From Cladocopium goreaui (lineage: Eukaryota; Sar; Dinophyceae; Suessiales; Symbiodiniaceae), in contig CAMXCT020001833.1 in assembly GCA_947184155.2 (NCBI GenBank), positions 62,001-126,000 of the forward strand: DNA of 64,000 nt. Direction: 5' to 3'. Of the stretch, positions 16,104-64,000 are shown in pieces. The stretch's first letter is position 1. Every line of letters begins with the position of its first letter. The position numbers were made by a program, and so were the translations under genes. The notes under the pieces are model-generated. The model had not been told where the DNA came from. It saw only the letters and a list, made by a program, of their open reading frames with translations, and ran no database searches.

Positions 16104-19100
16104 CTAGGCAAAAAACCATCCAGTTTCATTGTCAGAGAATATCTCTTCCCAAAATGTTAAAATCTCAGAAAATGAGAAAACGCCATTTGTTGCAACTTGT
16201 TGCAGATTCAACACGTTTTCAACATCAATTTCATCCAGGTCCTGAGAGTCGTCAGGATGTCTGAGGAAGAGAGGCCGGTAAGCCGGATCCTGGCAAGGCG
16301 CGACCCGCGTGCGCAGGGCACGTCGAAAATCAACTCGCGCAAGTGGATCAACTCGCTTGTCACTGGAGAGAGAATCATTCCCACTATTCTTTGACATGCG
16401 AAACAACTATGGGATGTTTCGGTTCTCCTCAGCCTGTGCGACTCTAGTCGAGGAGTAGTACCTACAAGCAAGTCGATGTGAGTTTGCCTTTCTTAGGCTT
16501 TGAGCCCATCGACAAACCGTGAGTTGACCAAAACTTGGCGCACTTGTAATTCCTGTCATATCCCTGAATGGAGGCGGGCATCACCTCACAACAGATCCAA
16601 CGATTCCCTTGAGCAAAGTACTTCACAAGAAGTGGATAAATACGTGTATAATATATATATATATATATTATATATATACACTATCATGTGGATGGTGGGT
16701 TGGATGTTGATTCTTCAGCAAGTCATTACTATTCACTCCAAATATTTGCAGCTCTAAGGAGCACACCACCACCGTTTTGTGGGAGTTGAAGCGTCGCATC
16801 TTCTTGCCCTGGAAGGCTGCGGCGAAGGAGTTCGCCAAGGCCGGCTCCGTGAAGTTAATAAAACCTCAGCAGCAGCCAGCAGGCTGGGGGTTCAACCTAG
16901 TGATCCTTGTGGATAGGGGTTGAAAATTTAGGGGAAAACCATGGAAAACCCAAAATAACTATTGTTGAGAGTTATCTTTTGGCTTAGAAAATTTTTTTTA
17001 GGTTTATTTTTTTTGCGATTTCGATATGATTTTGTTATGATTTTGTTATGGTTTCGATATGGTGGAAAATATGGTTTTTTTATGGTCTGAAACCACCTCA
17101 TCAAAGCGATATGAATTTCAATATGTTTCTTTTATGGTGTGGACATGCCTCCAGCTTGCATATTTTGATTTTTTCTAGATTCTAGATATATGTATATATA
17201 TGTATATTTCTATTAAATATCATTATTATTAATATATTATATATGTACAAAAATTTACTATTACTAAATTTATTAAAGAAAAAATAAATATATAAATGTA
17301 AAAAGGAAAAAATGTCAAGAGAACATTACTATATATTTTTGTATATTATTGGAAAATGCATATTTGAATTAAAGTAAGAAGAAGTAAACTGAAATATAAG
17401 AAAAGTATGACGAGAATTTTACTAATATTATCTTATATTTGAGGCCACGAAAAATATAAATTGAAATATAAGAAACAAGTAAAAAGATATTTTTACTATT
17501 TATATGTCAGCTAAAGAGAAAAGAGTTATAAGTTGAAATGAAAGAAGAAGTGTAAGGAATGCCTAATGAATAACAATTAAAAGTCAAACATTTTTCAAAA
17601 ATATCATTTAACATTGAAAATCTGCAAGGGCAGGTGAAAACAGTCAAGGGTATCGGATAAGAAAACCAAATTTTTAAATCAACAAGTCTTAGTTGTAGTT
17701 CAAAGACGATAAGTGGAAACCAAATGAAAAAAGTTAATTAACTAACTAACTATCGAAACACTCATATGTATAATTAAAAATTTTAAAGAGCTTCCAGATT
17801 GGGTCACTAAGGCAAGAGAGCCGTGATGCTTTTCTTGACTAAACTGACTGACTAAAGGCGGCTAGCCGCCAAATAGACACGGAATCCTTAACATTGGACA
17901 CCATGGTTCAATCACGGACTACGCTGACACTGCTACACACACACACAGCACATGGGTTCAGTAGGGTTTACACTTAAACTGTCGTTTTTATGTCAGCCCT
18001 CCTTCCTTCTGAGATAGCAATGGTAACCACCCAGAACAGCGGCCGTCACAAAGGAAGCCATGGGTTTCTGAATGGTTGTGCCCCAAGCCTATGTGATTAA
18101 TGATTAATGATTGATTAATGCCATAGAGCATAGGCCTTCGGCCATGGGCATAGGCATAGGAGCTCAAAAACTTTGTTTAGCTGAGCTGGTTTAGCTTAGC
18201 TGAGCTGTTTAGCTTAGCTCAACAACTTTGTCTGGTTTTTAAATATGTTTAATTTAAAATAAAAACACGACATACGCCACATACGCAACAGGAAAGCTGT
18301 AAAGCAGGAAAACATGCTTTTGGTTTTCCAGGTGTAAAATTTTGTTTCAAGTACATGCGCATCGCTCGCATTTACGCCCGCCTACGCGACGCATAAACTC
18401 CAAACATGTGCCATGCAAGGTTTTGAGACAAACACAGGTTTGAAGGTTTTTGGCTTCTAAGACCCTAGGAAAGTTCACATTGAACTTTCAAAAGTGCAAC
18501 TCTCTTTGTCATAATACATTATATACGAGTTTTCACACAAAGCGCGGATGCGTCACCGATACCAGTTCAGATTCTAGCGGAGCCAAACATGTGCCAATCA
18601 TTGCTTCATCAGTTCGCTGTTGGCGCATTGTGGCCCCCACTTTTACTGTTTCATCCCACGCTGTCACTGTTCACGTTAGTCACTAGCCATTAGTCACGCA
18701 CTAGTCAGTTTTCAATACCACTCTGCCCCGTTCTGCTCTGAAAAAGGGCAAGTTAGGCCCAAGGTTAAAATCAAAGACATGCGAGTCAACTGCCCAGCAC
18801 CTTTTTTCCCTTCTCAGGCTTCTCAGAGCGATGTGCCAAGACTTCCCAGAAAGAGCCTACATGGCCTAACGGGGATGATGCGAGTCAAACGCAAACCACA
18901 GGTACAGAGATATATGATTTGATTTTTCTGTGCTTGTGACTTAAGATCACAGCCGTCCATATTCCAGGATAGAGAATGCAACTGCTGCAAGGGGAGCAAG
19001 GTTCCATATTTGTTCACTGTTATGGATTTCCAGTGCTGCCTCACACACTGTAGAAACGGAGGGCCCAGCAGAATTTTCATAGTGCAACTTGGGATCGGAG

Positions 19101-22100
19101 ATAGGGCCTTTTTGTTGTGGTGTGGGTGGCTGAAAACGTAAGGTTTCTGTGACAAAATCAGAGCATGAAAAATCAACCATATCAAAACCATATCAAAATC
19201 ATATCAAAACCATAAAATCAACCATAACAAAATCATATCAAAATCATTAAAAAAAAACGAAACATATGTTTTTTATGATTTTGATATGATTTCGATATGA
19301 TTTCGATATGATTTTGATATGATTTTGATATGCCAAAGGTTATGGTTTTCTTATGGTTTTGGAGTGCCTCCGTTTTTTGGATATGATTTCGTTATGGTCT
19401 TAGGACGGTGTATGCTGTCTGGTTTGGGGCACTTTGCTCCTAGTTGAGTGGTGTCTAGTTTGCAGGGGGACATGTGAACCAATCCCCGGCCACACCTCCC
19501 ATGCACCCCCGTCGCCGGACCCCGGCCACACCTCCCTCCGCCCACACCTTCCACCCCCGTCGCCGGACCCCGACCACACCTCCCACCCCCGTCGCCGGAC
19601 CCCGGCCACACCTCCCATCCCGTCGCCGGACAGTGGAACCACTGAGGAACTCTCCGATTTCAAACTTTGGTTTCTTTCTGATTTTTTTTGATCTCCAGGC
19701 ACGTTGCAGCATGCTACAGACCTACAGAGTCCAGTTTGAATTTAAGTTTTTCTATTTTGGGGGTGAAGCTGGCAAGAAGAAGAGGTTTCCAATGTTGCTG
19801 CAAACTGAGTTTAGGGTTTAGTCACTCTTTCCACATTCCATTTACCAGTTCATGTCGTCGTGTCTTTGCACTGTTGCAAGCTTCATCTCATCGCTATTCC
19901 CATGCACAAGCCATTCCTACCTACAGGCAATCCTTTTCCTATTCATATTATAGCGTCGTGTCCCTTTTTCAAAACTTCTGTCCCGGTGTTTGTGTGCCAT
20001 GCACTCACTACTATAACAACTGTTACTACTGATGATGACTTGACTTTATCCGAACTGTCTTGATGATGTCATGGACCGACATAAGCTATGACAGCTATGA
20101 CAGACTAACTGCCTTGACTAAGTGACTATCTGAACTTGAACTATGACTATGACTATGACGATGGCTATGGAGGCAATTCGACTGGACCTTGCGAATGGAT
20201 CCATACACAGTGTACAATGACTTACATTGCTTTTGGGCTTATTGGGCTATTGGGAAAACAGTTTCATGTGATCTTCCAAAGGATATATCGGTAAGGCAGG
20301 GCTAAGGAAACTGTGACATTTGACATGTCTTGAACTGCCAGCATGACTAGCAGACTAGATGAGATTGCAAGTGTGACAAGGGTACTCTCTGGAGATTTTG
20401 TGAAAATATCGCAGAGCTGATAAACAGGAAGGATAAGCCGATACGCTGACGACAGAAAAGAGATAAGAATCAGAATGATTGAGTAGAATGTGTAAACTTG
20501 AGTTGAGTAGAATAGATAGTAATAGATTCAGATCAAAATGTTTGTTTATGATGAAAAAGTAATGCCGGATGTCAGATATGACATCAGGCAAAATAGAATT
20601 GAATAGAATAGAATACATGACAACAAAAAAGAATCGAGTTGTGTGATCAAGCTGCTAGCTACTAGTTACTGCTAGCAGCTAGCTAGTTGCCTGTTACTAG
20701 CTGCTAAGCTGCTAGGTGCTAGCTGCTAGCTGCTTGATCAACAGAAGCTACACACCAGAACCCAAGAATATATGCCAAGTAAAAACGTCAGATAGGACAG
20801 GAAAGAAGAAAATACATCTCATAGAAAACTTTGAACAAATCTAATGAATCTAATGAATCTGTGAAGAGGCACCTTAGGACCGCCTTAGGACCTATGGACC
20901 TATGGCTTTGTGGACCAACCAAAAGTGAAAATCGATTTCAATATCATTCTCTTCGTTTCGCTCTACTAGTTACTAGTTCCTTTTTATAATTATACTTAGT
21001 TTAGCTTCTAAAAACCAAAAAATCTTAAAACATCAAGCAAAACTGAAAGACAAAACTAGTAGATTTTGAATGATGGTACTGATCAGGCAAGGATTTTTTT
21101 CAGCCTAAAATCTAAAAGCATTTTTTGCAGTTGATTTAGATTTAATTATATGTTTAAAGATAAATATTTTCTGGATTTTTTCAATTCTGAAATGTCCATT
21201 AAAATAACAAATTGATTTTTTTACAAAAAAATATACGACCAGCCATAACAAATTTCATAAGAAAAAAATGAAGCACTCCAGGACCATAACAAAACCATAT
21301 CGAAATCATAACTGTTTTCAGGACAGGCAAAAAAAACATAAAATCAACCATAAGGAAACCATAACAAAACCATAACAAAACCATATCGAAATCACAAAAA
21401 AAAAAATCTATAAAATAATTTCTCTAGGCAAATGATAACTCTCAAAACTATTGGTTACTCGTCATTTTCCCTCATAAAAGAGCCACGTTACGGGTATACC
21501 GTATATACTTATATGGATACCCTGAAATACCCTGTGCCCAAAAAAACAAATGGCCCGTCAGAATTTTGGATTCAAGCAGCAGTCGATTAGTGATTAGGGG
21601 ATTCCAAGTTTGGATGCGATGGAGCTTCCTTCAACGATTCTCGCGGTGATTTGTGGTCTGTGCAAGATGCAACCAGCTGCTTACTGTACCACTCTGTCAC
21701 AATCAGGGATCTTTAGCTATGGCTGTGTCCTTGTTCCCCTCTCTCTTTGCCACTCTGCCCCCTATATGATCACAAAACCCGTGGAAACACTTAGGCCAAC
21801 CTGAGGCTTGAGCAATAGCCAAGATTTGCAGCATTGCCTTTGTGTTGACTGACAGACCCACATCCAGACTTCGTGGACTTGCTGCTAGCTCGCCATCCAT
21901 GTCACCCCCAAAATTCCCGAAAAACTGCCTTTCATAGCAATCGTTTGAGTTGTGGCTGTTGGCTGTTCAATGCTGTCCATAAAGTTCTTCCGTTAAAAAA
22001 AGGCTGGTAAACGTCCCTGGTCCAGCTGTCCAGAAAAATGCTTTCGCCCAGCGGCTGTGGTCCATCGGAAGGTAGAAAAAGTCAAAGTCGGACTGGCAAA

Positions 22101-22850
22101 GCGACAAACTTTGGCCCACCCTTTTATGTGGCACGACATTTTGGGAGTCGAGTCATGTGGGAAACTCCGGATCCCCAAAGTCTAGACGTGCTCCCAATCA
22201 TTCCTGCAGCAAAGAGCTGCAAAGCACCTGCACTCGGAAACCAGCGTCCGCCAATTCGTCCAACAGCATCTGTTGTCTGTACCTCACACAGATCACCAAT
22301 GGACACCTGGGGACCTCTGGAGTAACTGGGGTCCTTACCATGTTGCAACCAACCGCTTGGAAGTGGCATCATTACTTGCCAAAACTGACATGCTATGACC
22401 ATAGTTTTGGAGGTGCCAGACAACTTGCAAGTGGGAGTGGCTCAGATTGGCAGATTGGTATATACCTATTCCAAACAATGATAAAGGAATAACGGATGAA
22501 GACTGCATGAGCTAGACGGAAAGCGTCATGTGGTTCACTCGTGTGATCTTATGGCTTTGTCTCAAGAGCTCATGCAGCACTTCATTTTCGAGACCCAGCA
22601 GGTCGCCCAGGTCCACAAGATCCACAAGGCCGTGCTAAGACGCTGACTTGTTGGGCAGGTTTCTCATCATCACCGTTGTTACATCATTCCAAGGTGGTTC
22701 CTGGGCGGTGCCATTCCAAGAGAGCCGTCGATGTCGCACATTGTGCTGCGCGCATCTGCGCGCCTTGCTGGTGATGTCATTGTTCTTCAACGCGTTGATG
22801 CCCTCAGTGGAAAAAAACATGTGGACATAGTTCCCCACAATTTCTGGAAC
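16104..22850 (-). CDS. Mei2-like RRM RNA-binding protein gene, multi-exon, with a transposon-laden intron
   Basis: The Mei2-type C-terminal RRM is assembled from separate - exons in correct order: 22800-22648 (VTTVMMRNLPNK, RNP2), 22281-22229 (YRQQMLLDELADAGFRVQ), 22094-22041 (DFDFFYLPMDHSRWAK), a 24-base micro-exon 21837-21814 (GNAANLGY), 16868-16757 (CFINFTEPALANSFAAAFQG, then KKMRRFNSHKTVVVC, RNP1 and the FNS-K signature), and 16406-16104 (QDPAYRPLFLR and an acidic tail to the stop). Mei2-like proteins bind RNA and control meiosis or development in fungi and plants; in dinoflagellates the family is expanded and its role unknown. Joins imply a GC donor (GGCTATT|GCTCAAG) and AG|G acceptors. 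The ~4.9-kb intron between LGY and CFINF contains the foldback element. N-terminal exons may lie at 22980-23860. Confidence 0.8.
16650..16682. repeat. TA microsatellite in Mei2-like intron
   Basis: Run of alternating TA, read directly. Confidence 0.85.
16755..16868 (-). CDS. Mei2-like RRM exon carrying RNP1
   Basis: Minus-strand exon preceded by CTGCTGAG (acceptor). It encodes FINFTEPALANSFAAAFQGK followed by KMRRFNSHKTVVVC. The F-I-N-F core of RNP1 and the FNS..K motif are diagnostic of the Mei2 RRM. The preceding codon is completed by the micro-exon at 21814-21837. Confidence 0.8.
17160..17780. other. Markedly AT-rich block inside the foldback element
   Basis: Almost all A and T with stretches such as TATTAAATATCATTATTATT; far richer in A/T than the surrounding window. 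No coding frame. Confidence 0.7.
19160..19410. repeat. Internal inverted repeat of CATATCAAAATC / GATTTTGATATG units
   Basis: Units in CATATCAAAACC orientation (19175-19240) face units in GATTTTGATATG orientation (19277-19335) around a centre near 19250. The outward sequence TTATGGTTTTGGAGTGCCTCC matches the inverse of that at 21275-21300. Confidence 0.75.
19480..19632. repeat. GC-rich minisatellite (CACACCTCCC...GTCGCCGGACCCC)
   Basis: GTCGCCGGAC recurs at about 19509, 19559, 19592 and 19622 with CCACACCTCCC between. The frames it opens encode repeated RRTPATPP- or GRGPATGV-like peptides and are not taken as genes. Confidence 0.85.
20644..20750. repeat. CTAGCTGCTAG-rich imperfect palindrome
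   Basis: Begins GTGTGATCAAGCTGCTAG and ends CTAGCTGCTTGATCA, with many GCTAGC/CTAGCAG units between; the ends are inverted copies. Confidence 0.7.
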
Positions 22851-41300: not shown

Positions 41301-42131
41301 CTTTGTCGATGGCTTCAAACGCCTAAAGCTCTGCGAGGTTCAAGACACTGCCATGATGCAAACGCACAAGGCACTGCCACAAGCAAACCAGGCCTGAATA
41401 TCAACTGCTGCCATTTGTCTGGCCTCAGAGCACTCGACTCGGAAACCCGATTGAAATCATGGATTCCAGGGACAACGAGACAACTCCGAGACAACACAAA
41501 AATGATATTCCATGTCATTTGAGCTTACACAACAAAAATGCCATGATAAACGAAGTAAGCCAGCTCTGCAACCCAACAGCAGGTTCCAGCGTTACAGTTC
41601 CGTTCCGGTCTTTGAGCTCGACAAAAAACGATGCAGCGATGCACCACTCCCAGACCCAGAGATTGAAACTCAAGTCACTGCTGCTAGGAATTTTCCAGCA
41701 AGAATGTGGAAGAAAACTTGCATGTACTGGGAAATACTGGGAAACCATACCTTTGATGGCCAAATTGCCACGAGAGCAACCAGAAGGTTGTCATCGTGGA
41801 TATCAAAAGCTGCATGCTGAAGGCTGCCAAAGTTCAAATGCAGGACTTCATCAGAGTTGTTCATGTCAGGAAAGCGGTTATATCAAACTGAGATGATCAG
41901 GGGTTCCCATGTTTTTGTATCTGCAACTATTGTGCGAACAGAATCCTCATAACAACTCAACTGTAAGACATCTTGGATGCCAGGCATGTTGATTCGGCTT
42001 GAGCCACAAAGAAAGGGAGTTTGTTCTTGTGTAGCAGCTTCGCGCTTCCCAACACACACTCTAGAAACATGCTCAATGCATTTGAGAGTAATAAATTCCA
42101 TACCATTGCATTTTTGAAGTAAGGATACCAT
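41300..42131 (-). CDS. Unidentified exon-like blocks downstream of the methyltransferase
   Basis: On -, 42060-41890 reads FLCGSSRINMPGIQDVLQLS then YEDSVRTIVADTKTWEPLI with a stop; 41864-41750 reads DEVLHLNFGSLQHAAFDIHD then DNLLVALVAIWPS. These are protein-like with no recognised family. They begin within a few dozen bases after the methyltransferase stop on the same strand, so they could be part of a tightly spaced next gene. Confidence 0.35.
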
Positions 42132-47040: not shown

Positions 47041-47612
47041 CAAAGAAAAAAATGCAATTTTACCTCAGTTTTTGGCGATCGACCACCATTTCGTGCGAAA
47101 GGGTTGCAACGGCCTTGGGATCGCAATTTTACCGATTTTTTTGACGATCGAACCTCATTGCGAAAGGGTTGCGCCGGACGACTTGCAAATCGCACTTTTA
47201 CCTCAGTTTTTGGCGATCGAACCTCATTTCGTGCGAAAGGGTTGCGCGGGACACCTTGAAATCGCAATTTTACCGCAGCTTTTGACGATCGAACCTCATT
47301 TCGTGCGAAAGGGTTGCGCGGGACACCTTGAAAATCGCACTTTTACCTCAGTTTTTGACGATCGAACCTCATTTCGTGCGAAAGGGTTGCGCCGGACGAC
47401 TTGCAAATCGCACTTTTACCTCAGTTTTTGGCGATCGAACCTCATTTCGTGCGATGGGGTTGCGGGGTACACCTTGAAATCGCAATTTTACCGCTGTTTT
47501 TGACGATCGAACCTCATTTCGTGCGAAAGAGTTGCGCGGGATCGGTGGAAATCGCAATTTTACCGCAGTTTTTGGCGATCGAACCTCATTTCGTGCGAAA
47601 GGGTTGTGTTTC
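47041..47612 (+). repeat. ~72-bp tandem array x 8
   Basis: Each unit has TTTTACC(T/G)CAGTTTTTGG, CGATCGAACC and TCATTTCGTGCGAAAGGGTT. CGATCG recurs near 47077, 47144, 47212, 47284, 47358, 47430, 47503 and 47575. It opens a 233-codon repetitive + frame that is not taken as a gene. Confidence 0.92.
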
Positions 47613-47689
47613 GTGCCGTCTCGTTGGCACTGCCCCTGCTCCCGCCTCCAAAAGAAAAATAGAAAAGAAGGAGAGGGCAAGAGGGCAAG

Positions 47690-48122
47690 AGGGCAAGAGG
47701 AGAAGATGTGAGATGAGAAGATGTGAAGATGAGAAGATGTGAGAAGATGTGAGAAGATGTGAGAAGATGTGAGAAGATGTGAGAAGATCTGAGAAGATCT
47801 GAGAAGATCTGAGAAGATGTGAGAAGATCTGAGAAGATGTGAGAAGATGTGAGAAGATGTGAGAAGATGTGAGAAGATGTGAGAAGATGTGAGAAGATGT
47901 GAGAAGATGTGAAGATGAGAAGATGTGAGAAGATGTGAGAAGATGTGAAGATGAGAAGATGAGGAGAAGATGAGAAGATGAGGAGAAGATGAGAAGATGA
48001 GAAGATGAGGAGAAGATGTGAGGATCAGGAGATGTGAAGATGAGAAGATGTGAAGATGAGAAGATGAGGAGAAGATATGAGGATGAGAAGATGTGAAGAG
48101 GAGAAGATGTGAAGATGAGAAG
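47690..48122. repeat. GAGAAGATGT satellite
   Basis: About 40 copies of a 10-bp unit with variants GAGAAGATCT, GAAGATGAGAA and GAGGAGAAGAT. Confidence 0.95.
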
Positions 48123-53841: not shown

Positions 53842-54512
53842 ATGCGAAGCCTGATTTCAATTGACTTTCCGGCCCCAGAAATGGAACCTGAAAGCGCACA
53901 TGTGGTATCAGCTGTCTCCGTTCCCTTGCTCCAATGCGGCGATTGCAATGCAGCACCACCCAGGCAACATTCACCAATCCGTCGCTACTCCGCCTACTCC
54001 GCTACTCCGTGGTATGTTTTAATTCAATTACCCAATGTAATTGACACGATATCGAAACGATGGCGGAGTAAGAGAGCCTTCAATACTTCACCTTCCCACA
54101 TCTTTCCCTAAGCAGATTCTTACTCCATCCCGTTTAAAATTAATACTATTAATTAATAACGGGATTGACTGAAAAGATCATAATTCATGTTCTTTCTGGG
54201 CTGCAAACTTCGGTAGGAGTCTAGAGGGGCAAGGGGGGCCAACAAGGGGCAGTAAAGTATTCAATACAATCATTCAAATGGAAGCCGGCCACCTTCGCGA
54301 AAACCCACAAACTCCGCAACAGCAAGAAACACTTCAAGCAATCACCTAAGGCTGCAAAAGGCTGATGCGCCTTCTTTTAGCAGCAAACAATCAAGCCACC
54401 AGACGAAACGAAATAATAAAAAGCTACCTTCAACTGGGTTCAAGCAGCAACCGATATGCACCCCGCTTGCCCCAACACGAAACCAAATCATCTACAAAAC
54501 AGCTTCCTCTGA

Positions 54513-54532
54513 CGGACCCAATTCTGGGTCCG
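54513..54532. repeat. 8-bp-stem hairpin with 4-nt loop (copies at 57740 and 60971)
   Basis: CGGACCCA ATTC TGGGTCCG: perfect stem and tetraloop; repeated in every unit of the array. Confidence 0.92.
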
Positions 54533-54681
54533 GAAAACCTTCTCAAAACCGGCTTCGCTCAAAAGGACCTCCCTAGTTGCCCTTCCGGCCGCCATACGCC
54601 ACAAAGCTTCATTGAAACCAAATCGTTGCGCTTCTGCAACCTTGATACTGTACAACAAACTTCAAAAAATGAACCTAAACA

Positions 54682-54726
54682 CGGTCCCAAAAATGGGACC
54701 GCCTGGCGGTCCCATTTTTGGGACCG
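54682..54726. repeat. Nested double hairpin 1 (copy at 57909-57953)
   Basis: CGGTCCCA AAAA TGGGACCG is followed by GCGGTCCCA TTTT TGGGACCGC. Each is a hairpin, and the two are inverse copies of one another, so the whole is also a 22-bp inverted repeat with a single-base centre. Confidence 0.93.
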
Positions 54727-54766
54727 CATGCACCGCTTAGTAAAAAAACAAAAGAAAGCACTTTCA

Positions 54767-54811
54767 CGGTCTCATTTTTGGGACCGTCTGGCGGTACCAA
54801 AAATGAGACCG
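54767..54811. repeat. Nested double hairpin 2 (copy at 57995-58039)
   Basis: Left arm CGGTCTCATTTTTGGGACCG, spacer TCTGG, right arm CGGTACCAAAAATGAGACCG; the arms are inverse with one mismatch. Confidence 0.92.
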
Positions 54812-55899
54812 CAAAATCGCAAAATTAACAGCAAAGGCCGACCCCTGCAACGAACAAAAAAATGACAACTGCGTTTAGTTAAGCAACAAGCATATAGAGT
54901 TGGAACAGAGGAGGCCCGCACATGCGAAGCCTGATTTCAATTGACTTTCCGGCCCCAGAAATGGAACCTGAAAGCGCACATGTGGTATCAGCTGTCTCCG
55001 TTCCCTTGCTCCAATGCGGCGATTGCAATGCAGCACCACCCAGGCAACATTCACCAATCCGTCGCTACTCCGCCTACTCCGCTACTCCGTGGTATGTTTT
55101 TTTTCCGTCCAACGCCTCCGAGGCTTTCGCCAGGTCGTTACACAAGCTTTTACTTGCCGGAAATTGAATTGACATGCATGAAAAGCCACAAAAGAGAGCT
55201 GGTGTGGACCTTTACATAGTCCATAAAGCTATCCGATTGCCGAGAGCGGGCACAAACCAACAAAAAAGCAAACGAAACAAAAACCACAAAAAGCAAAACA
55301 CACAAAAAACAACCAAACAAACAAACCAGAACAAAACCAAACAAAAAACAGGGCAAAAGGACAGCAATGTGCTCTTGAGATGAATTCCGATAGCAACTTG
55401 TGTGCCATCCTTCGCGCAGGCCATCATACATCTCGACGCATGCAAATGACAACTTCTGTGCCATATCAACGCAGGCCCTTAAACAAGAAAACAACCAAAA
55501 CACCAACCACAAAATCACCCAGGGCCACATCACAGGGTGCTGAAGCAACACAGCTCAATGCGGAAACCAGGGATCCCCCCAGCCAGGATCCCCGAGATCT
55601 CAAAGAGCAGCCATCATGGCATAATATAGCACCAAAACACTTTGAAGCAAACACCGTCAACGCCGGGTCACAACAAAGTGGTGAGAAGCTACCGCAGTGA
55701 AACAGGAAAGTGAAACGTGGTCTAAGGTGAAAAAGACGGCGCGGTAACAGCACTCAGGTACCCTCAGAGTCCGCTCAGTACTGCTTTTCCAATCATCATA
55801 TTGCACCGAAATTGTTAGTGGCACTACCATGCTAGTGCTCTTGCATTGCATCTTCGTGATATGGGAGAAAATACCCATATATGGGAGTTGCAGTGCATT

Positions 55900-56036
55900 T
55901 GGCGGAATATACCACTTTCAAAACTGAATCCAATGCGATCGAGTTCGCGAAGGGCGAGCTTGACCGCATGGATGCAGGCTTGCAAGCGTTGCGCAGCTTG
56001 AGCGGTCAACTTGGCAGGTGTTGAGATCAACTGCAT
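55900..56036 (-). CDS. Array unit small ORF c, copy 1 (copy 2 at 59125-59265)
   Basis: ATG 56036, MQLISTPAKLTAQAAQRLQA then CIHAVKLALRELDRIGF. Helix-like. Copy 2 has KLAL changed to ELAL and an extra base after the coding-like part. It may be the exon after the 151-codon ORF. No family recognised. Confidence 0.4.
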
Positions 56037-56070
56037 TAGATGCGGTCAATGATCATGGTAGCTTGCTTGG

Positions 56071-56526
56071 TTACATTGGTGTAGGAATACGAGCGTTTTT
56101 CTCTGCCCAGGGACCAGGTCTATCCTCAAAGTGCTCAAAAGAGGTTCTGGACAGGCAACTTGTGTCAGCTGTGTGAAGGTCTTCAGTCCGGTACTGTTGT
56201 ACGCTTGCATGCATGAGCTGTAGCTGTCGACGAATCACTTCTCGTTCTGTAACGTTGGCACGGGCTTCTAGTCGAATGCGCAGACTTCTTAAGCAACAGC
56301 AGGCTGTGCGAATGTCTCTGCAGTCTTGCTCGTTGATAACACCTGCAAGGAGTTCCGTTTGCTGCAATACGGCGTGGGTGTCTTCCAAAGTTCTGAGAGT
56401 GTTCGTCAGTCTGTGCACATAGTCCTGCAGTAAGAGGAGATCCTGTGCCTCATTGTGAATCTGGGGTTCCTGAGGCAGGCATACTACTTCGTTTGATTGC
56501 ACGGAGCTCATATGGTCGGGTGACAT
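56071..56526 (-). CDS. Array unit 151-codon ORF, copy 1
   Basis: ATG at 56526 to a stop at 56071. Largely helical and charged: QIHNEAQDLLLLQDYVHRLT, NTLRTLEDTHAVLQQTELLA, NEQDCRDIRTACCCLRSLRI and ERE-VIRRQLQLMHASVQQ, suggesting a coiled-coil protein. No family recognised. The same protein is encoded at 59755-59300 with three residue changes seen (R to S, Y to H, H to N). It shares strand with the orphan 605-codon ORF and may be one of its upstream exons. Confidence 0.5.
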   Translation of the reverse strand: MSPDHMSSVQSNEVVCLPQEPQIHNEAQDLLLLQDYVHRLTNTLRTLEDTHAVLQQTELLAGVINEQDCRDIRTACCCLRSLRIRLEARANVTEREVIRRQLQLMHASVQQYRTEDLHTADTSCLSRTSFEHFEDRPGPWAEKNARIPTPM

Positions 56527-56734
56527 TCAAGCAATGCAGGTACTGGATTGCCTGAGCAAGACAGCAACGGGCGCCATGGCTTGATGTGCTTTGACATCTC
56601 ACTACACTACCATGCAACGTTTAAAGACACAAAATGACAAACAACCCATAACAGGATAATTAGTATAACCGCCCCCCCCGCCTCCCGTCCCATGCTCGAT
56701 TCTGCATGCTGAGAACATGGTAGCCGCAGCGGGC

Positions 56735-56900
56735 AGTAATCAACCATGAGTACCCCATGGTGACAACGCCGCTCAACTTTACTGTCACCAATATATCTTG
56801 TGCTGGCAATCCTATGCTGGCTCCAGCATGTCGACTGGAAAAGGGAGTGGCAGGCAGTTATCAACCATGAGTACCCCATGGTGACAACGCCGTTCAAGTT
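56735..56900. repeat. Direct repeat ATCAACCATGAGTACCCCATGG within the unit
   Basis: TCAACCATGAGTACCCCATG and GTGACAACGCCG occur at about 56738 and 56858 (and at 59969 and 60090 in the second unit). Confidence 0.88.
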
Positions 56901-56963
56901 AGTTGAAGTTGGATGCTGATTGCTCTTCGTGGAACTTGGGTACTTTGTGTCATTTGGTGCGTT

Positions 56964-57200
56964 TTATTGGAACTGTTCGTGTGGTGTAGTGCGAAGGTCT
57001 CGACTGCTACTGGCACCACTCGCGCTCGCAGTGGCAGAGGGTGGCTCACTACTCTCCGCAGGTTTCATCATTTGGGCTATGAGCGGGTGAGTATGCTTAT
57101 CGCGCAGGATGCGTGTCATTTCGCGGGTGAATGCCGCAGGGTCATCAACTAATTGCTTTGCTTCCTCCAGTGGCTTGTCCAGAACAATGGCAATAAGCAT
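56964..57200 (-). CDS. Array unit 78-codon ORF, copy 1
   Basis: ATG 57200: MLIAIVLDKPLEEAKQLVDD, PAAFTREMTRILRDKHTHPL, IAQMMKPAESSEPPSATASA, ending TTPHEQFQ. The frame is open upstream for about ten residues (HGVPTIIHKDGGE), so it may be an internal exon. An identical protein is encoded at 60430-60194. No family recognised. Confidence 0.45.
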   Translation of the reverse strand: MLIAIVLDKPLEEAKQLVDDPAAFTREMTRILRDKHTHPLIAQMMKPAESSEPPSATASASGASSSRDLRTTPHEQFQ

Positions 57201-59299
57201 TTCCCCGCCATCTTTGTGGATGATGGTCGGTACTCCGTGGTATGTTTTAATTCAATTACCCAATGTAATTGACACGATATCGAAACGATGGCGGACTAAG
57301 AGAGCCTTCAATACTTCACCTTCCCACATCTTTCCCTAAGCAGATTCTTACTCCATCCCGTTTTAAATTAATACTATTAATTAATAACGGGATTGACTGA
57401 AAAGATCATAATTCATGTTCTTTCTGGGCTGAAAACTTCGGTAGGAGTCTAGAGGGGCAAGGGGGGCCAACAAGGGGCAGTAAAGTATCAATACAATCAT
57501 TCAAATGGAAGCCGGCCACCTTCGCGAAAACCCACAAACTCCGCAACAGCAAGAAACACTTCAAGCAATCACCTAAGGCTGCAAAAGGCTGCTGCGCCTT
57601 CTTTTAGCAGCAAACAATCAAGCCACCAGACGAAACGAAATAATAAAAAGCTACCTTCAACTGGGTTCAAGCAGCAACCGATATGCACCCCGCTTGCCCC
57701 AACAAGAAACCAAATCATCTACAAAACAGCTTCCTCCGACGGACCCAATTCTGGGTCCGGAAAACCTTCTCAAAACCGGCTTCGCTCAAAAGGACCTCCC
57801 TAGTTGCCCTTCCGGCCGCCATACGCCACAAAGCTTCATTGAAACCAAATCGTTGCGCTTCTGCAACCTTGATACTGTACAACAAACTTCAAAAAATGAA
57901 CCTAAACACGGTCCCAAAAATGGGACCGCCTGGCGGTCCCATTTTTGGGACCGCATGCACCGCTTAGTAAAAAAACAAAAGAAAAGCACTTTCACGGTCT
58001 CATTTTTGGGACCGTCTGGCGGTACCAAAAATGAGACCGCAAAATCGCAAAATTAACAGCAAAGGCCGACCCCTGCAACGAACAAAAAATGACAACTGCG
58101 TTTAGTTAAGCAACAAGCATATAGAGTTGGAACAGAGGAGGCCCGCACATGCGAAGCCTGATTTCAATTGACTTTCCGGCCCCAGAAATGGAACCTGAAA
58201 GCGCACATGTGGTATCAGCTGTCTCCGTTCCCTTGCTCCAATGCGGCGATTGCAATGCAGCACCACCCAGGCAACATTCACCAATCCGTCGCTACTCCGC
58301 CTACTCCGCTACTCCGTGGTATGTTTTTTTTCCGTCCAACGCCTCCGAGGCTTTCGCCAGGTCGTTACACAAGCTTTTACTTGCCGGAAATTGAATTGAC
58401 ATGCATGAAAAGCCACAAAAGAGAGCTGGTGTGGACCTTTACATAGTCCATAAAGCTATCCGATTGCCGAGAGCGGGCACAAACCAACAAAAAAGCAAAC
58501 GAAACAAAAACCACAAAAAGCAAAACACACAAAAAACAACCAAACAAACAAACCAGAACAAAACCAAACAAAAAACAGGGCAAAAGGACAGCAATGTGCT
58601 CTTGAGATGAATTCCGATAGCAACTTGTGTGCCATCCTTCGCGCAGGCCATCATACATCTCGACGCATGCAAATGACAACTTCTGTGCCATGTCAACGCA
58701 GGCCCTTAAACAAGAAAACAACCAAAAAACCAACCAAAAAATCACTCAGGGCCACATCACAGGGTGCTGAAGCAACACAGCTCAATGCGGAAACCAGGGA
58801 TCCCCCCAGCCAGGATCCCCGAGATCTCAAAGAGCAGCCATCATGGCATAATATAGCACCAAAACACTTTGAAGCAAACACCGTCAACGCCAGGGTCACA
58901 ACAAAGTGGTGAGAAGCTACCGCAGTGAAACAGGAAAGTGAAACGTGGTCTAAGGTGAAAAAGACGGCGCGGTAACAGCACTCAGGTACCCTCAGAGTCC
59001 GCTCAGTACTGCTTTTCCAATCATCATATTGCACCGAAATTGTTAGTGGCACTACCATGCTATTGCTCTTGCATTGCATCTTCGTGATATGGGAGAAAAT
59101 ACCCATATATGGGAGTTGCAGTGCACTTTGGCGGAGTATACCACTTTCAAAACTGAATCCAATGCGATCGAGTTCGCGAAGGGCGAGCTCGACCGCATGG
59201 ATGCAGGCTTGCAAGCGTTGCGCAGCTTGAGCGGTCAACTTGGCAGGTGTTGAGATCAACTGCATTAGATGCGGTCAATGATCTTGGTAGCTTGCTTGG

Positions 59300-59755
59300 T
59301 TACATTGGTGTAGGAATACGAGCGTTTTTCTCTGCCCAGGGACCAGGTCTATCCTCAAAGTGCTCAAAAGAGGTTCTGGACAGGCAACTTGTGTCAGCTG
59401 TGTTAAGGTCTTCAGTCCGGTGCTGTTGTACGCTCGCATGCATGAGCTGTAGCTGTCGACTAATCACTTCTCGTTCTGTAACGTTGGCACGGGCTTCTAG
59501 TCGAATGCGCAGACTTCTTAAGCAACAGCAGGCTGTGCGAATGTCTCTGCAGTCTTGCTCGTTGATAACACCTGCAAGGAGTTCCGTTTGCTGCAATACG
59601 GCGTGGGTGTCTTCCAAAGTTCTGAGAGTGTTCGTCAGTCTGTGCACATAGTCCTGCAGTAAGAGGAGATCCTGTGCCTCATTGTGAATCTGGGGTTCCT
59701 GAGGCAGGCATACTACTTCGTTTGATTGCACGGAGCTCATATGGTCGGGTGACAT
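59300..59755 (-). CDS. Array unit 151-codon ORF, copy 2
   Basis: Near-identical duplicate of the ORF at 56071-56526, same length, ATG and stop, with three amino-acid differences visible. Retention of an open frame in both copies suggests either recent duplication or selection. Confidence 0.5.
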   Translation of the reverse strand: MSPDHMSSVQSNEVVCLPQEPQIHNEAQDLLLLQDYVHRLTNTLRTLEDTHAVLQQTELLAGVINEQDCRDIRTACCCLRSLRIRLEARANVTEREVISRQLQLMHASVQQHRTEDLNTADTSCLSRTSFEHFEDRPGPWAEKNARIPTPM

Positions 59756-60193
59756 TCAAGCAATGCAGGTACTGGATTGCCTGAGCAAGACAGCAACGGG
59801 CGCCATGGCTTGATGTGCTTTGACATCTCACTACACTACCATGCAACGTTTAAAGACACAAAATGACAAACAACCCATAACAGGATAATTAGTATAACCG
59901 CCCTCCCCGCCTCCCGTCCCATGCTCGATTCTGCATGCTGAGAACATGGTAGCCGCAGCGGGCAGTAATCAACCATGAGTACCCCATGGTGACAACGCCG
60001 CTCAACTTTACTGTCACCAATATATCTTGTGCTGGCAATCCTATGCTGGCTCCAGCATGTCGACTGGAAAAGGGGAGTGGCAGGCAGTTATCAACCATGA
60101 GTACCCCATGGTGACAACGCCGTTCAAGTTAGTTGAAGTTGGATGCTGATTGCTCTTCGTGGAACTTGGGTACTTTGTGTCATTTGGTGCGTT

Positions 60194-60430
60194 TTATTGG
60201 AACTGTTCGTGTGGTGTAGTGCGAAGGTCTCGACTGCTACTGGCACCACTCGCGCTCGCAGTGGCAGAGGGTGGCTCACTACTCTCCGCAGGTTTCATCA
60301 TTTGGGCTATGAGCGGGTGAGTATGCTTATCACGCAGGATGCGTGTCATTTCGCGGGTGAATGCCGCAGGGTCATCAACTAATTGCTTTGCTTCCTCCAG
60401 TGGCTTGTCCAGAACAATGGCAATAAGCAT
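60194..60430 (-). CDS. Array unit 78-codon ORF, copy 2
   Basis: Encodes the same protein as 56964-57200. It is the last complete coding-like block before the array truncates at 61035. Confidence 0.45.
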   Translation of the reverse strand: MLIAIVLDKPLEEAKQLVDDPAAFTREMTRILRDKHTHPLIAQMMKPAESSEPPSATASASGASSSRDLRTTPHEQFQ

Positions 60431-61035
60431 TTCCCCGCCATCTTTGTGGATGATGGTCGGTACTCCGTGGTATGTTTTAATTCAATTACCCAATGTAATT
60501 GACACGATATCGAAACGATGGCGGACTAAGAGAGCCTTCAATACTTCACCTTCCCACATCTTTCCCTAAGCAGATTCTTACTCCATCCCGTTTTAAATTA
60601 ATACTATTAATTAATAACGGGATTGACTGAAAAGATCATAATTCATGTTCTTTCTGGGCTGCAAACTTCGGTAGGAGTCTAGAGGGGCAAGGGGGGCCAA
60701 CAAGGGGCAGTAAAGTATTCAATACAATCATTCAAATGGAAGCCGGCCACCTTCGCGAAAACCCACAAACTCCGCAACAGCAAGAAACACTTCAAGCAAT
60801 CACCTAAGGCTGCAAAAGGCTGATGCGCCTTCTTTTAGCAGCAAACAATCAAGCCACCAGACGAAACGAAATAATAAAAAGCTACCTTCAACTGGGTTCA
60901 AGCAGCAACCGATATGCACCCCGCTTGCCCCAACAAGAAACCAAATCATCTACAAAACAGCTTCCTCCGACGGACCCAATTCTGGGTCCGGAAAACCTTC
61001 TCAAAACCGGCTTCGCTCAAAAGGACCTCCCTAGT

Positions 61036-61894: not shown

Positions 61895-62385
61895 CGTGGA
61901 GCACCCTTCGGCGAAGGTACCTTAAGCCCCCTTCGAAGGTACCTTAAGCCTTTGCCGAAGGGGAGACGGGGGGGGAGGGGGGGGGTGAACGAGGAACCGA
62001 AGCCCCCTTAAGGTACCTTAAGGGGGCTTCGAAGGCTTCGAAGGTATCTTAAGGGGGCTTCGAAGCCTTCGAAGGTACCTTAAGGAGGCTTCGACGAAGG
62101 TACCTTAAGGGGTCTTCGCCGAAGACTTCGAAGGTATCTTAAGCGGGCTTGGACGAATTCTTCGAAGCCCCCTTAAGGTGCCTTCGAAGCCTTCGAAGCT
62201 CCCTTAAGGTACCTTAAGGTAGCTTCGAGTGTTGAAGCCTTGGCTGAAGCCTTTGAAGGTACCTTAAGGGAGCTTCGAAGGCTTCGAAGGCACCTTAAGG
62301 GGGCTTCGAAGCCTTCCTCAACGGACCTTCAAATTCTATTTCTCAAGCTCCCCCCTTAAGGTACCTTCCTGAAGGGCCTCTCACC
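61895..62385. repeat. Palindromic satellite block of GGTACCTTAAGG / CTTCGAAG units, copy 1
   Basis: Made of AAGGTACCTTAAGG, GGGGGCTTCGAAG and CCTTCGAAG units in both orientations. Contains a G-run and AACGAGGAACCGAAGCC near 61973, which recurs at 63733. Confidence 0.93.
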
Positions 62386-62394
62386 GACTGCCTG

Positions 62395-63625
62395 GGGGCA
62401 GTCGTGTGGAAGGCAAGAGAATTAGATTTCAGATCATGGTATTGTGGAAGGCAAGGGGGGAAGTTTAAATAAAAGTTAGAATTTAGATCATGGCATTGTC
62501 GATGGCAAGGAGGGGGAAGTTTAAATAAAGAGTTAGATTTTAGATCATGGCATTGTGGAAGGCAGGGGGATGAAATTGAAACAAAGAGTTGGAATTTAGA
62601 TCATGGCATTGTGGAAGGCAAGCGGGGGGAAGTTTAAGTTAGATTTTAGACCATGGCATGGTGGAAGGCAAGGGGGAAATTTGAATAAAGAGTTGGAATT
62701 TAGATCAGGCATTGTGGAAGGCAAGGGGGGAACTGAAGAGTTCGATTTTAGATCATGCCATTGTGGAAGGCAAGAGTGGAACTATAAACAAAGAGTTAGA
62801 TTTTAGATCATGGCATTGTGGAAGGCAAGGGAGGGGAAAGTTCATAAAAAATCAGATTTTAGATCAAAGTTTTAAAAACAAGAGTTGGATTTTAGACCAT
62901 GGCATTGTGGAAGGCAAGAGGGCGAAGTGTAAATAAAGAGTTGGAATTTAGATCATGGCATTGTGGAAGGCAGGGGAGGAAGTGCAAATAAAGACTTAGA
63001 TTTCACTTCATGCCATTGTGGAAGGCAGGGGGGGAAGTTCAAATAAAGAGTTGGAATTTAGATCATGGCATTGTGGAAGGCAAGCGGAGGGAAGTTTAAG
63101 TTAGATTTTAGACCATGGCATGGTGGAAGGCAGGGGGGAAATTTTGAAGAGTTCGATTTAGATCATACCATTGTGGAAGGCAAGAGTGGAACTATAAATA
63201 AGCAGTAGATTTTAGATCATGGTATTGTGGAAGGCAAGGGAGGCGGAAGTTCATTAAAAGTCAGATTTTAGATTCAAGTTTTAAAACAAGAGTTCGATTT
63301 TAGATCATGGCATTGGAAGGCAAGCGGAGGGAAGTTTAAATAAAGTGTTTGACTTTGGATCATGGCATTGTGGAAGGCAGGGGAGGAAGTGCAAATAAAG
63401 AGTTGGAATTTAGATCATGGCATTTGTGGAAGGCAAGGGGAGAAGTTTAAACAAAGAGTTCGATTTTAGATCATGGCATTGTGGAAGGCAAGGCGGGGAA
63501 AAATTTAATAAAGAGTTAGAATTTAGATCATGGCACTGTGGAAGGCAAGAAGGGGGTGGAAGTTTAAATAAAGAGTTAGATTTTAGATCATGGCATTGTG
63601 GAAGGCAAGCGAATTAGATTTTAGA
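62395..63625. repeat. ~58-bp satellite, about 20 copies
   Basis: Units follow TTTAGATCATGGCATTGTGG, AAGGCAAGGGGGGAAGTT and TAAATAAAGAGTTAGA. The frame it opens encodes repeated FRSWHCGRQ peptides, which is a by-product of the repeat. Confidence 0.93.
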
Positions 63626-64000
63626 TCATGCCTTCGACGAATGTACCTTAAGGCGGCTTCGAAGCCTTCGAAGGTACCTTAAGGGTGCTTCGACGAAGGG
63701 AACGCCTTTGCCGAAGGGGGGACGGGGGGGAGGGGGTAAACGAGGAACCGAAGCCCCCTTAAGGTACCTTAAGGGGGCTTCGAAGGCTTCGAAAGATACG
63801 GCTTCGAAGACTTCGAAGGTATCTTAAGGGGGCTTCGAAGCCTTCGAAGGTACCTTAAGGGGCTTCGACGAAGGTACCTTAAGGAGTCTTCGCCGAAGAC
63901 TTCGAAGGTACCTTAAGGAGCTTCGACGAATTCTTCGAAGCCCCCTTTAGGTGCCTTCGAAGCCTTCGAAAGCTCCCTTAAGGTACCTTAAGGTGGCTTC
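63626..64000. repeat. Palindromic satellite block, copy 2, runs off the right edge
   Basis: Same AAGGTACCTTAAGG and TTCGAAG units in the same order as 61895-62385, so the two blocks and the 58-bp array between them form a higher-order repeat of about 1.75 kb. Confidence 0.92.

Follow-up and report, generated by a model that had tools for sequence, protein, structure and literature searches.

The closest described relatives of the gene analyzed here are the Mei2 and MEI2-like RRM3 proteins, represented by S. pombe Mei2 (7eio and 6yyl), with which it shares the RRM_2 domain, the order of the sequence blocks and an extension behind the RRM that includes AYRP. The entry 7eio is the RRM3 of S. pombe Mei2 (PMC12787238). 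In that paper, myzozoan MEI2-like proteins are described as carrying RRM3 only, with Kryptoperidinium and Perkinsus as the stated exceptions; Amoebophrya is credited with 4 copies of MEI2-like genes, Oxyrrhis marina with about 24 and Prorocentrum cordatum with 89. As in most of these myzozoan homologues (PMC12787238, available part), a single RRM was seen in the present gene. It differs from Mei2 in that neither RRM1 nor RRM2 was seen in the eight joined exons, the presumed N-terminal exons lying outside that set, and from the Mei2 proteins in its division over at least eight exons.

The DNA element located in one intron of this gene resembles non-autonomous TIR DNA transposons with an 8-bp target-site duplication (TSD) in its TIRs, its perfect TSD and the failure to find a transposase, but it is distinguished from them by arms composed of 11-bp repeats and by a central pair of arm blocks in inside-out order. 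Mutator-like elements with multiple TIRs are characterized, in the available text of PMC3310237, by long TIRs and extra internal TIR-like copies and are mostly non-autonomous. Long TIRs and internal arm-like copies are shared by the element described here, whereas its TSD comprises 8 bp instead of the 9-11 bp given there (PMC3310237) and its internal pair is central, inside-out and devoid of the terminal 12 bp. Dinoflagellate introners, as far as they are covered by the accessible parts of PMC9860276 and PMC7789003, likewise are TIR/TSD elements without a transposase in spliceosomal introns; in contrast to them, the present element is about 4.5 kb in size, resides in an older intron and neither carries nor creates splice sites. 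All parts of the locus are of known kinds, and it is a case of ordinary biology that is cleanly resolved. A literature search on dinoflagellate microexons and foldback transposons, with most subscription papers outside its scope, returned no description of this arrangement.

With respect to the window, i.e. the whole stretch of 64,000 nucleotides that was analyzed, the data very probably reflect a Mei2-like dinoflagellate gene of at least eight short exons, in which a cut-and-paste element without a transposase stretched an intron of 460 nt that is likely still spliced out.

Exon organization of the Mei2-like gene

Joining of eight minus-strand exons between positions 22802 and 16104 yielded 618 nt or 206 codons (205 residues followed by TAG) with no internal stop codon. 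The exons and the intron that contains the element are as follows:

22648..22802, minus strand: exon a, 155 nt; start of the RRM, ...TTVMMRNLPNK; acceptor TGAG/G, donor GT
22234..22282, minus strand: exon b, 49 nt; YRQQMLLDELADAGFR; donor GT
22056..22092, minus strand: exon c, 37 nt; SDFDFFYLPMDH, the strand preceding RNP1; acceptor CAG/T, donor GC
21814..21837, minus strand: exon d, micro-exon of 24 nt; (S)NAANLGY(C), first part of RNP1; phase 1-1; donor GC (GCTCAAG)
16865..21813, minus strand: intron with the element, 4949 nt; GC-AG
16767..16864, minus strand: exon e, 98 nt; (C)FINFTEPALANSFAAAFQGKKMRRFNSHKTVV; donor GT
16544..16584, minus strand: exon f, 41 nt; VMPASIQGYDRNY; donor GT
16434..16461, minus strand: exon g, second tiny exon of 28 nt; (K)YYSSTRVAQ; donor GC
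16104..16289, minus strand: last exon, 186 nt; DPAYRPLFLRHP... through the stop codon TAG at 16104

The exon phases agree along the whole 205-residue Mei2-like frame, and no frameshift occurs across the eight exons. A previous sequence-only reading of this DNA had proposed that the RRM is recoverable by joining minus-strand exons, and the pieces were indeed recovered in this way, including the exon that begins with GTTTTATTAAC; the GC donor GCTCAAG of the 24-nt exon was likewise present, and the intron estimated at about 4.9 kb measured 4949 nt. The junction had been placed from 21814 to 16868, which is wrong since exon e starts at 16864, giving a junction from 21814 to 16864. The peptide GNAANLGY assigned to positions 21837-21814 pointed to a well-supported exon, although its first residue is S rather than G, spans the splice and reads ...MDHSNAANLGYCFINF... 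in the joined product. The 28-nt exon g, absent from that reading, encodes part of the Mei2-type extension and completes it. Exon a opens at 22802 with an acceptor-like sequence and lacks a start codon, and exons upstream of this position therefore presumably exist. The G+C content amounts to 49% in the coding exons, 47% in the rest of the 4949-nt intron and 38% in the AT-rich element.

Similarity of the deduced product to Mei2 proteins

The Mei2-like identity of the gene, which the sequence-only reading had assumed along with the Mei2 block order, is well supported by profile and sequence comparisons. The 205-residue product matched the Pfam family RRM_2 (PF04059) with 86.1 bits, above the gathering cut-off of 25, and RRM_1 with 22.8 bits (cut-off 20.7), while the match to Smg4_UPF3 remained at 18.2 bits, under the cut-off of 24. 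The best match among sequences of solved structures was 7eio (E 5.8e-22, 81.7 bits, query residues 41-156). Six distinct solved sequences were matched at E values up to 1, four of them belonging to Mei2 and two to HuC (E 0.14). The alignment with 7eio passes beyond the RRM into the Mei2 extension, including AYRP in the last exon, by way of the 28-nt exon. From membership in this family, the product presumably binds RNA through its RRM.

A tblastn search of the window for a second Mei2-like copy found none; apart from the gene itself, the strongest match had an E value of 0.31. No relative of the RRM turned up in viral contigs or in contigs of prokaryote genomes (0 relatives among 9 and 40 stretches fitting the pattern, respectively), as expected for a eukaryotic gene.

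Sequence support for the 24-nt micro-exon

To evaluate the micro-exon, candidate exons of 6-117 nt were taken from the region separating exons c and e; they had to be in phase, to follow an AG acceptor and to be followed by a GT, GC or GA donor. This definition yielded 1828 candidates with any AG acceptor, of which 730 were free of stop codons. With the Mei2 RRM3 sequence as reference, the 24-nt exon at 21837-21814 ranked first among the 730, with a score of 189 as compared with 171 for the next candidate with a different acceptor and 152 when the exon was omitted; none of 100 shuffles equalled it (best 185). In a larger run restricted to AG/G acceptors, it again ranked first, among 147 stop-free in-phase candidates, and was equalled by none of 1000 shuffles (best 185); with any AG acceptor allowed, two of 1000 shuffles did so (192 and 190).

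Omission of the micro-exon lowered the RRM_2 score of the product from 86.1 to 61.5 bits. The corresponding gain of 24.6 bits overstates the evidence and is in part mere gap filling, since six other candidates, hand-picked from the remaining 729, also raised the score, to 73.4-81.5 bits as compared with 87.8 for the micro-exon and 63.6 for none. The 1000-shuffle runs, not the Pfam gain, are the better test, and the sequence data give the micro-exon good, though not overwhelming, support. Because both of its phases are equal (1-1), skipping of the micro-exon would keep the frame and delete NAANLGYC.

Splice sites in comparison with published dinoflagellate data

Among the donors of the seven introns, four are GT and three are GC. 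The acceptors conform to AG/G in seven of eight cases, the site before 22802 being counted, and the sole exception is the CAG/T of exon c. The published tables that were accessible provide a basis for comparison. In Breviolum minutum, 51.77% of the introns are of the GC/GA-AG type; the corresponding share is 73.95% for Symbiodinium microadriaticum, 25.30% for Fugacium kawagutii, in which GT-AG introns reach 65.38%, and 0.02-2.95% for three Amoebophrya strains (PMC7789003). The same source lists median exon lengths of 53, 51 and 81 bp and mean intron lengths of 517, 505 and 893 bp for B. minutum, S. microadriaticum and F. kawagutii, respectively (PMC7789003). In a second source, GC donors amount to 51.4% and the mean intron length to 4709 bp in Prorocentrum cordatum, and GT donors to 74.9% in Amphidinium gibbosum; its table has seven species columns, in the first six of which AGG acceptors account for 79.7-97.1%, the seventh having 56.5% (PMC10666404).

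The GC donors, AG/G acceptors and short exons of the present gene match these tables, so that, judged by splice-site style and with published values that differ between species, it looks like an ordinary core-dinoflagellate gene. Accordingly, the oddity that the earlier description had implied for the tiny exon, the GC donor and the long intron is weakened: all three features are present, but short exons and GC donors are common in dinoflagellate tables, and the mean intron listed for P. cordatum is 4709 bp long (PMC10666404). No spliced-leader motif was detected in the window with up to three mismatches, and Rfam searches of the whole window at gathering scores gave no matches. The RRM of such a gene could escape gene finders, as its core is cut into exons of 24 and 28 nt that a transposon keeps 5 kb apart.

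A TIR element in an existing intron

The intron between the micro-exon and exon e contains the following features, to which no strand was assigned:

16965..21445: DNA element, 4481 bp; perfect 12-bp TIR TTGAGAGTTATC within imperfect TIRs of about 120 nt; 11-bp subterminal repeats
21446..21453: target-site duplication, copy 1, AACTATTG; adjoins the element end
16957..16964: target-site duplication, copy 2, AACTATTG; adjoins the element end

The foldback element previously suspected in this intron was thus recovered and can be specified as a TIR element with an 8-bp TSD. The repeat-rich region had been delimited as 16955-21455; its location wholly within the intron held, and its limits were corrected to 16965-21445 with flanking copies of AACTATTG. 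The arms are inverted over 122 nt, and their outer ends form the perfect 12-bp repeat TTGAGAGTTATC ... GATAACTCTCAA, exact matches to which occur in the window at the two ends only. Alignment of the terminal 126 nt from each end revealed 105 identical columns out of 131. The two TSD copies are identical at 8 of 8 bp, and one further copy of AACTATTG is present on this strand of the window, at 41925.

A scan for TIRs and TSDs covered 999 inverted 10-mer pairs with a spacing of 200-8000 nt in window positions 41-61900. Perfect 8-bp direct repeats adjacent to the pair were observed in two of the 999 cases, this element and one pair in TA-rich microsatellite DNA, and 20 displaced controls together produced six matches, all in places with 11-bp repeats, tandem duplication or TA-rich sequence. 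A looser scan of nearly the whole window including its end (spacing 60-8000 nt, repeats of 8-10 bp) gave 22 matches, which besides this element fell into the satellite at 62-64 kb (18), a TA-rich pair (2) and the tandem duplication at 54-58 kb (1). Its four displaced controls gave 47 matches together; the first 20 of these were located in the satellite (17), in the 11-bp repeats of this element (2) and in the tandem duplication (1).

These scans bear on the question of whether the inverted repeats might be chance products or unrelated AT-rich satellite blocks instead of the ends of one mobile element. The arms do consist largely of 11-bp repeats, which are also present in the middle of the block, but the perfect 12-bp TIR and the perfect 8-bp TSD lie exactly at the outer edge, and only the one other pair among 999, in TA-rich DNA, shares an adjacent 8-bp repeat. 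An origin of this kind is regarded as very improbable.

The central blocks at 19165-19255 and 19264-19361 (no strand assigned) contain arm-like 11-bp repeats in inside-out order and lack the 12-bp ends. This central pair may mark the point where two related elements meet; alternatively, arm sequence may have been duplicated internally, as described for the Mutator-like elements with several TIRs (PMC3310237), whose TSDs, however, comprise 9-11 bp. A GC-rich minisatellite with a unit of about 32 bp occupies positions 19504-19631 within the otherwise AT-rich element.

No Pfam match to a transposase, or to any other family above cut-off, was obtained for the 34 stop-to-stop open reading frames of at least 50 amino acids overlapping 16900-21500, a scan that could miss an intron-split or badly decayed transposase; the element is called non-autonomous on this basis. 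Three matches far under the cut-offs (14.4 and 11.6 bits with cut-offs of 25, and 12.7 bits with a cut-off of 27) were discarded as noise, none of them being transposase-like. An arm-derived DNA pattern matched nothing in viral contigs. The superfamilies to be considered for a TIR element with an 8-bp TSD are presumably the hAT-, MULE- and P-like groups.

The splice sites are separated from the element and its TSDs by other intron sequence, which measures 360 nt on one side and 92 nt on the other. Without the element and one TSD copy the intron would measure 460 nt, a length close to the mean introns of two of the three tabulated Symbiodiniaceae, and the insertion stretched it about tenfold. 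The 460-nt remainder argues for insertion into an intron that was already there, and against an intron created by the element. The contrary view, that the element is an introner whose insertion gave rise to the intron, can refer to dinoflagellate introners with TIRs and TSDs, among them those of Symbiodinium microadriaticum with 4-bp TSDs (PMC9860276). In the introner families described in the accessible part of that paper, the splice sites are supplied by the element itself, by its TSD or by the adjoining exon (PMC9860276), whereas the present element is flanked on both sides by other intron sequence and its ends neither coincide with nor supply splice sites. An introner origin was rejected for this reason and has a very low probability.

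Probable splicing across the element and predicted arm pairing

The insertion may alternatively have broken the gene. Transcripts would then terminate or be spliced wrongly within the AT-rich element, and the locus would represent a young pseudogene among many Mei2-like paralogues. The length of the element (4481 bp) and its low G+C content are compatible with this assumption, and the large MEI2-like families, with 89 members in P. cordatum (PMC12787238, available part), suggest that the loss of one copy might be tolerated. On the other hand, the eight exons are free of internal stop codons and frameshifts, the splice sites are in place on both sides, and introns average 4709 bp in P. cordatum according to the accessible tables (PMC10666404). 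A broken gene consequently appears unlikely. The intact 205-residue frame and the location of the splice sites outside the element fit the proposal of the sequence-only reading that the gene is functional and spliced across the insertion, which is likely.

For the preferred interpretation, the following course of events can be proposed. The minus strand would be transcribed as the Mei2-like gene, and at least eight short exons would be joined by splicing. A cut-and-paste DNA transposon that lacks a transposase of its own would have inserted into an ordinary intron of 460 nt, whereby 8 bp of the target were duplicated, as the observed footprint shows, and the intron would have grown to 4949 nt. 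Since neither splice site falls within the element and both are in place, the intron is most likely still excised by the spliceosome in one piece, together with the element. Judging from pairing energies, the arms may pair in the transcript and loop the element out, bringing the splice sites within roughly 460 nt of each other.

The computed RNA duplex of the two end arms has an energy of -113.1 kcal/mol, as compared with a best value of -79.8 and a median of -33.1 kcal/mol for 200 random pairs of equal size from the same intron. The central blocks paired together yielded -78.1 kcal/mol; in combination with the opposite-sense end arm they yielded -77.5 and -63.8 kcal/mol, and the same-sense pairs gave -26.4 and -8.5 kcal/mol. 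It is conceivable, though quite improbable, that the element is more than cargo, in that its arms loop out 4.5 kb with little harm and competing pairing of the central blocks tunes inclusion of the 24-nt exon, resulting in two isoforms. If so, skipping of the micro-exon would remove half of RNP1 with the frame kept, and one gene would provide RNA-binding and non-binding isoforms. The locus represents a well-bounded test case for the question of whether foldback elements are tolerated in introns by looping themselves out.

Other features of the window

A tandem duplication with a unit of 3.2 kb extends over positions 54000-61035, its copies at 54000-57300 and 57228-60530 being 99.2% identical and the start of a third copy occupying 60458-61035. 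At 61905-64000, a satellite is composed of palindromic AAGGTACCTTAAGG and CTTCGAAG units, between which a repeat of about 55 bp with TTAGATCATGGCATTGTGGAAGGC is interspersed as an interruption. At 47050-48122, about eight copies of a 72-bp unit form a tandem array, behind which a GAGAAGATGT-like unit of about 10 bp makes up a long array. Finally, a minus-strand open frame at 1692-2657 matched AAA_34 with 157.9 bits, which we take to be a strawberry-notch-type helicase domain.
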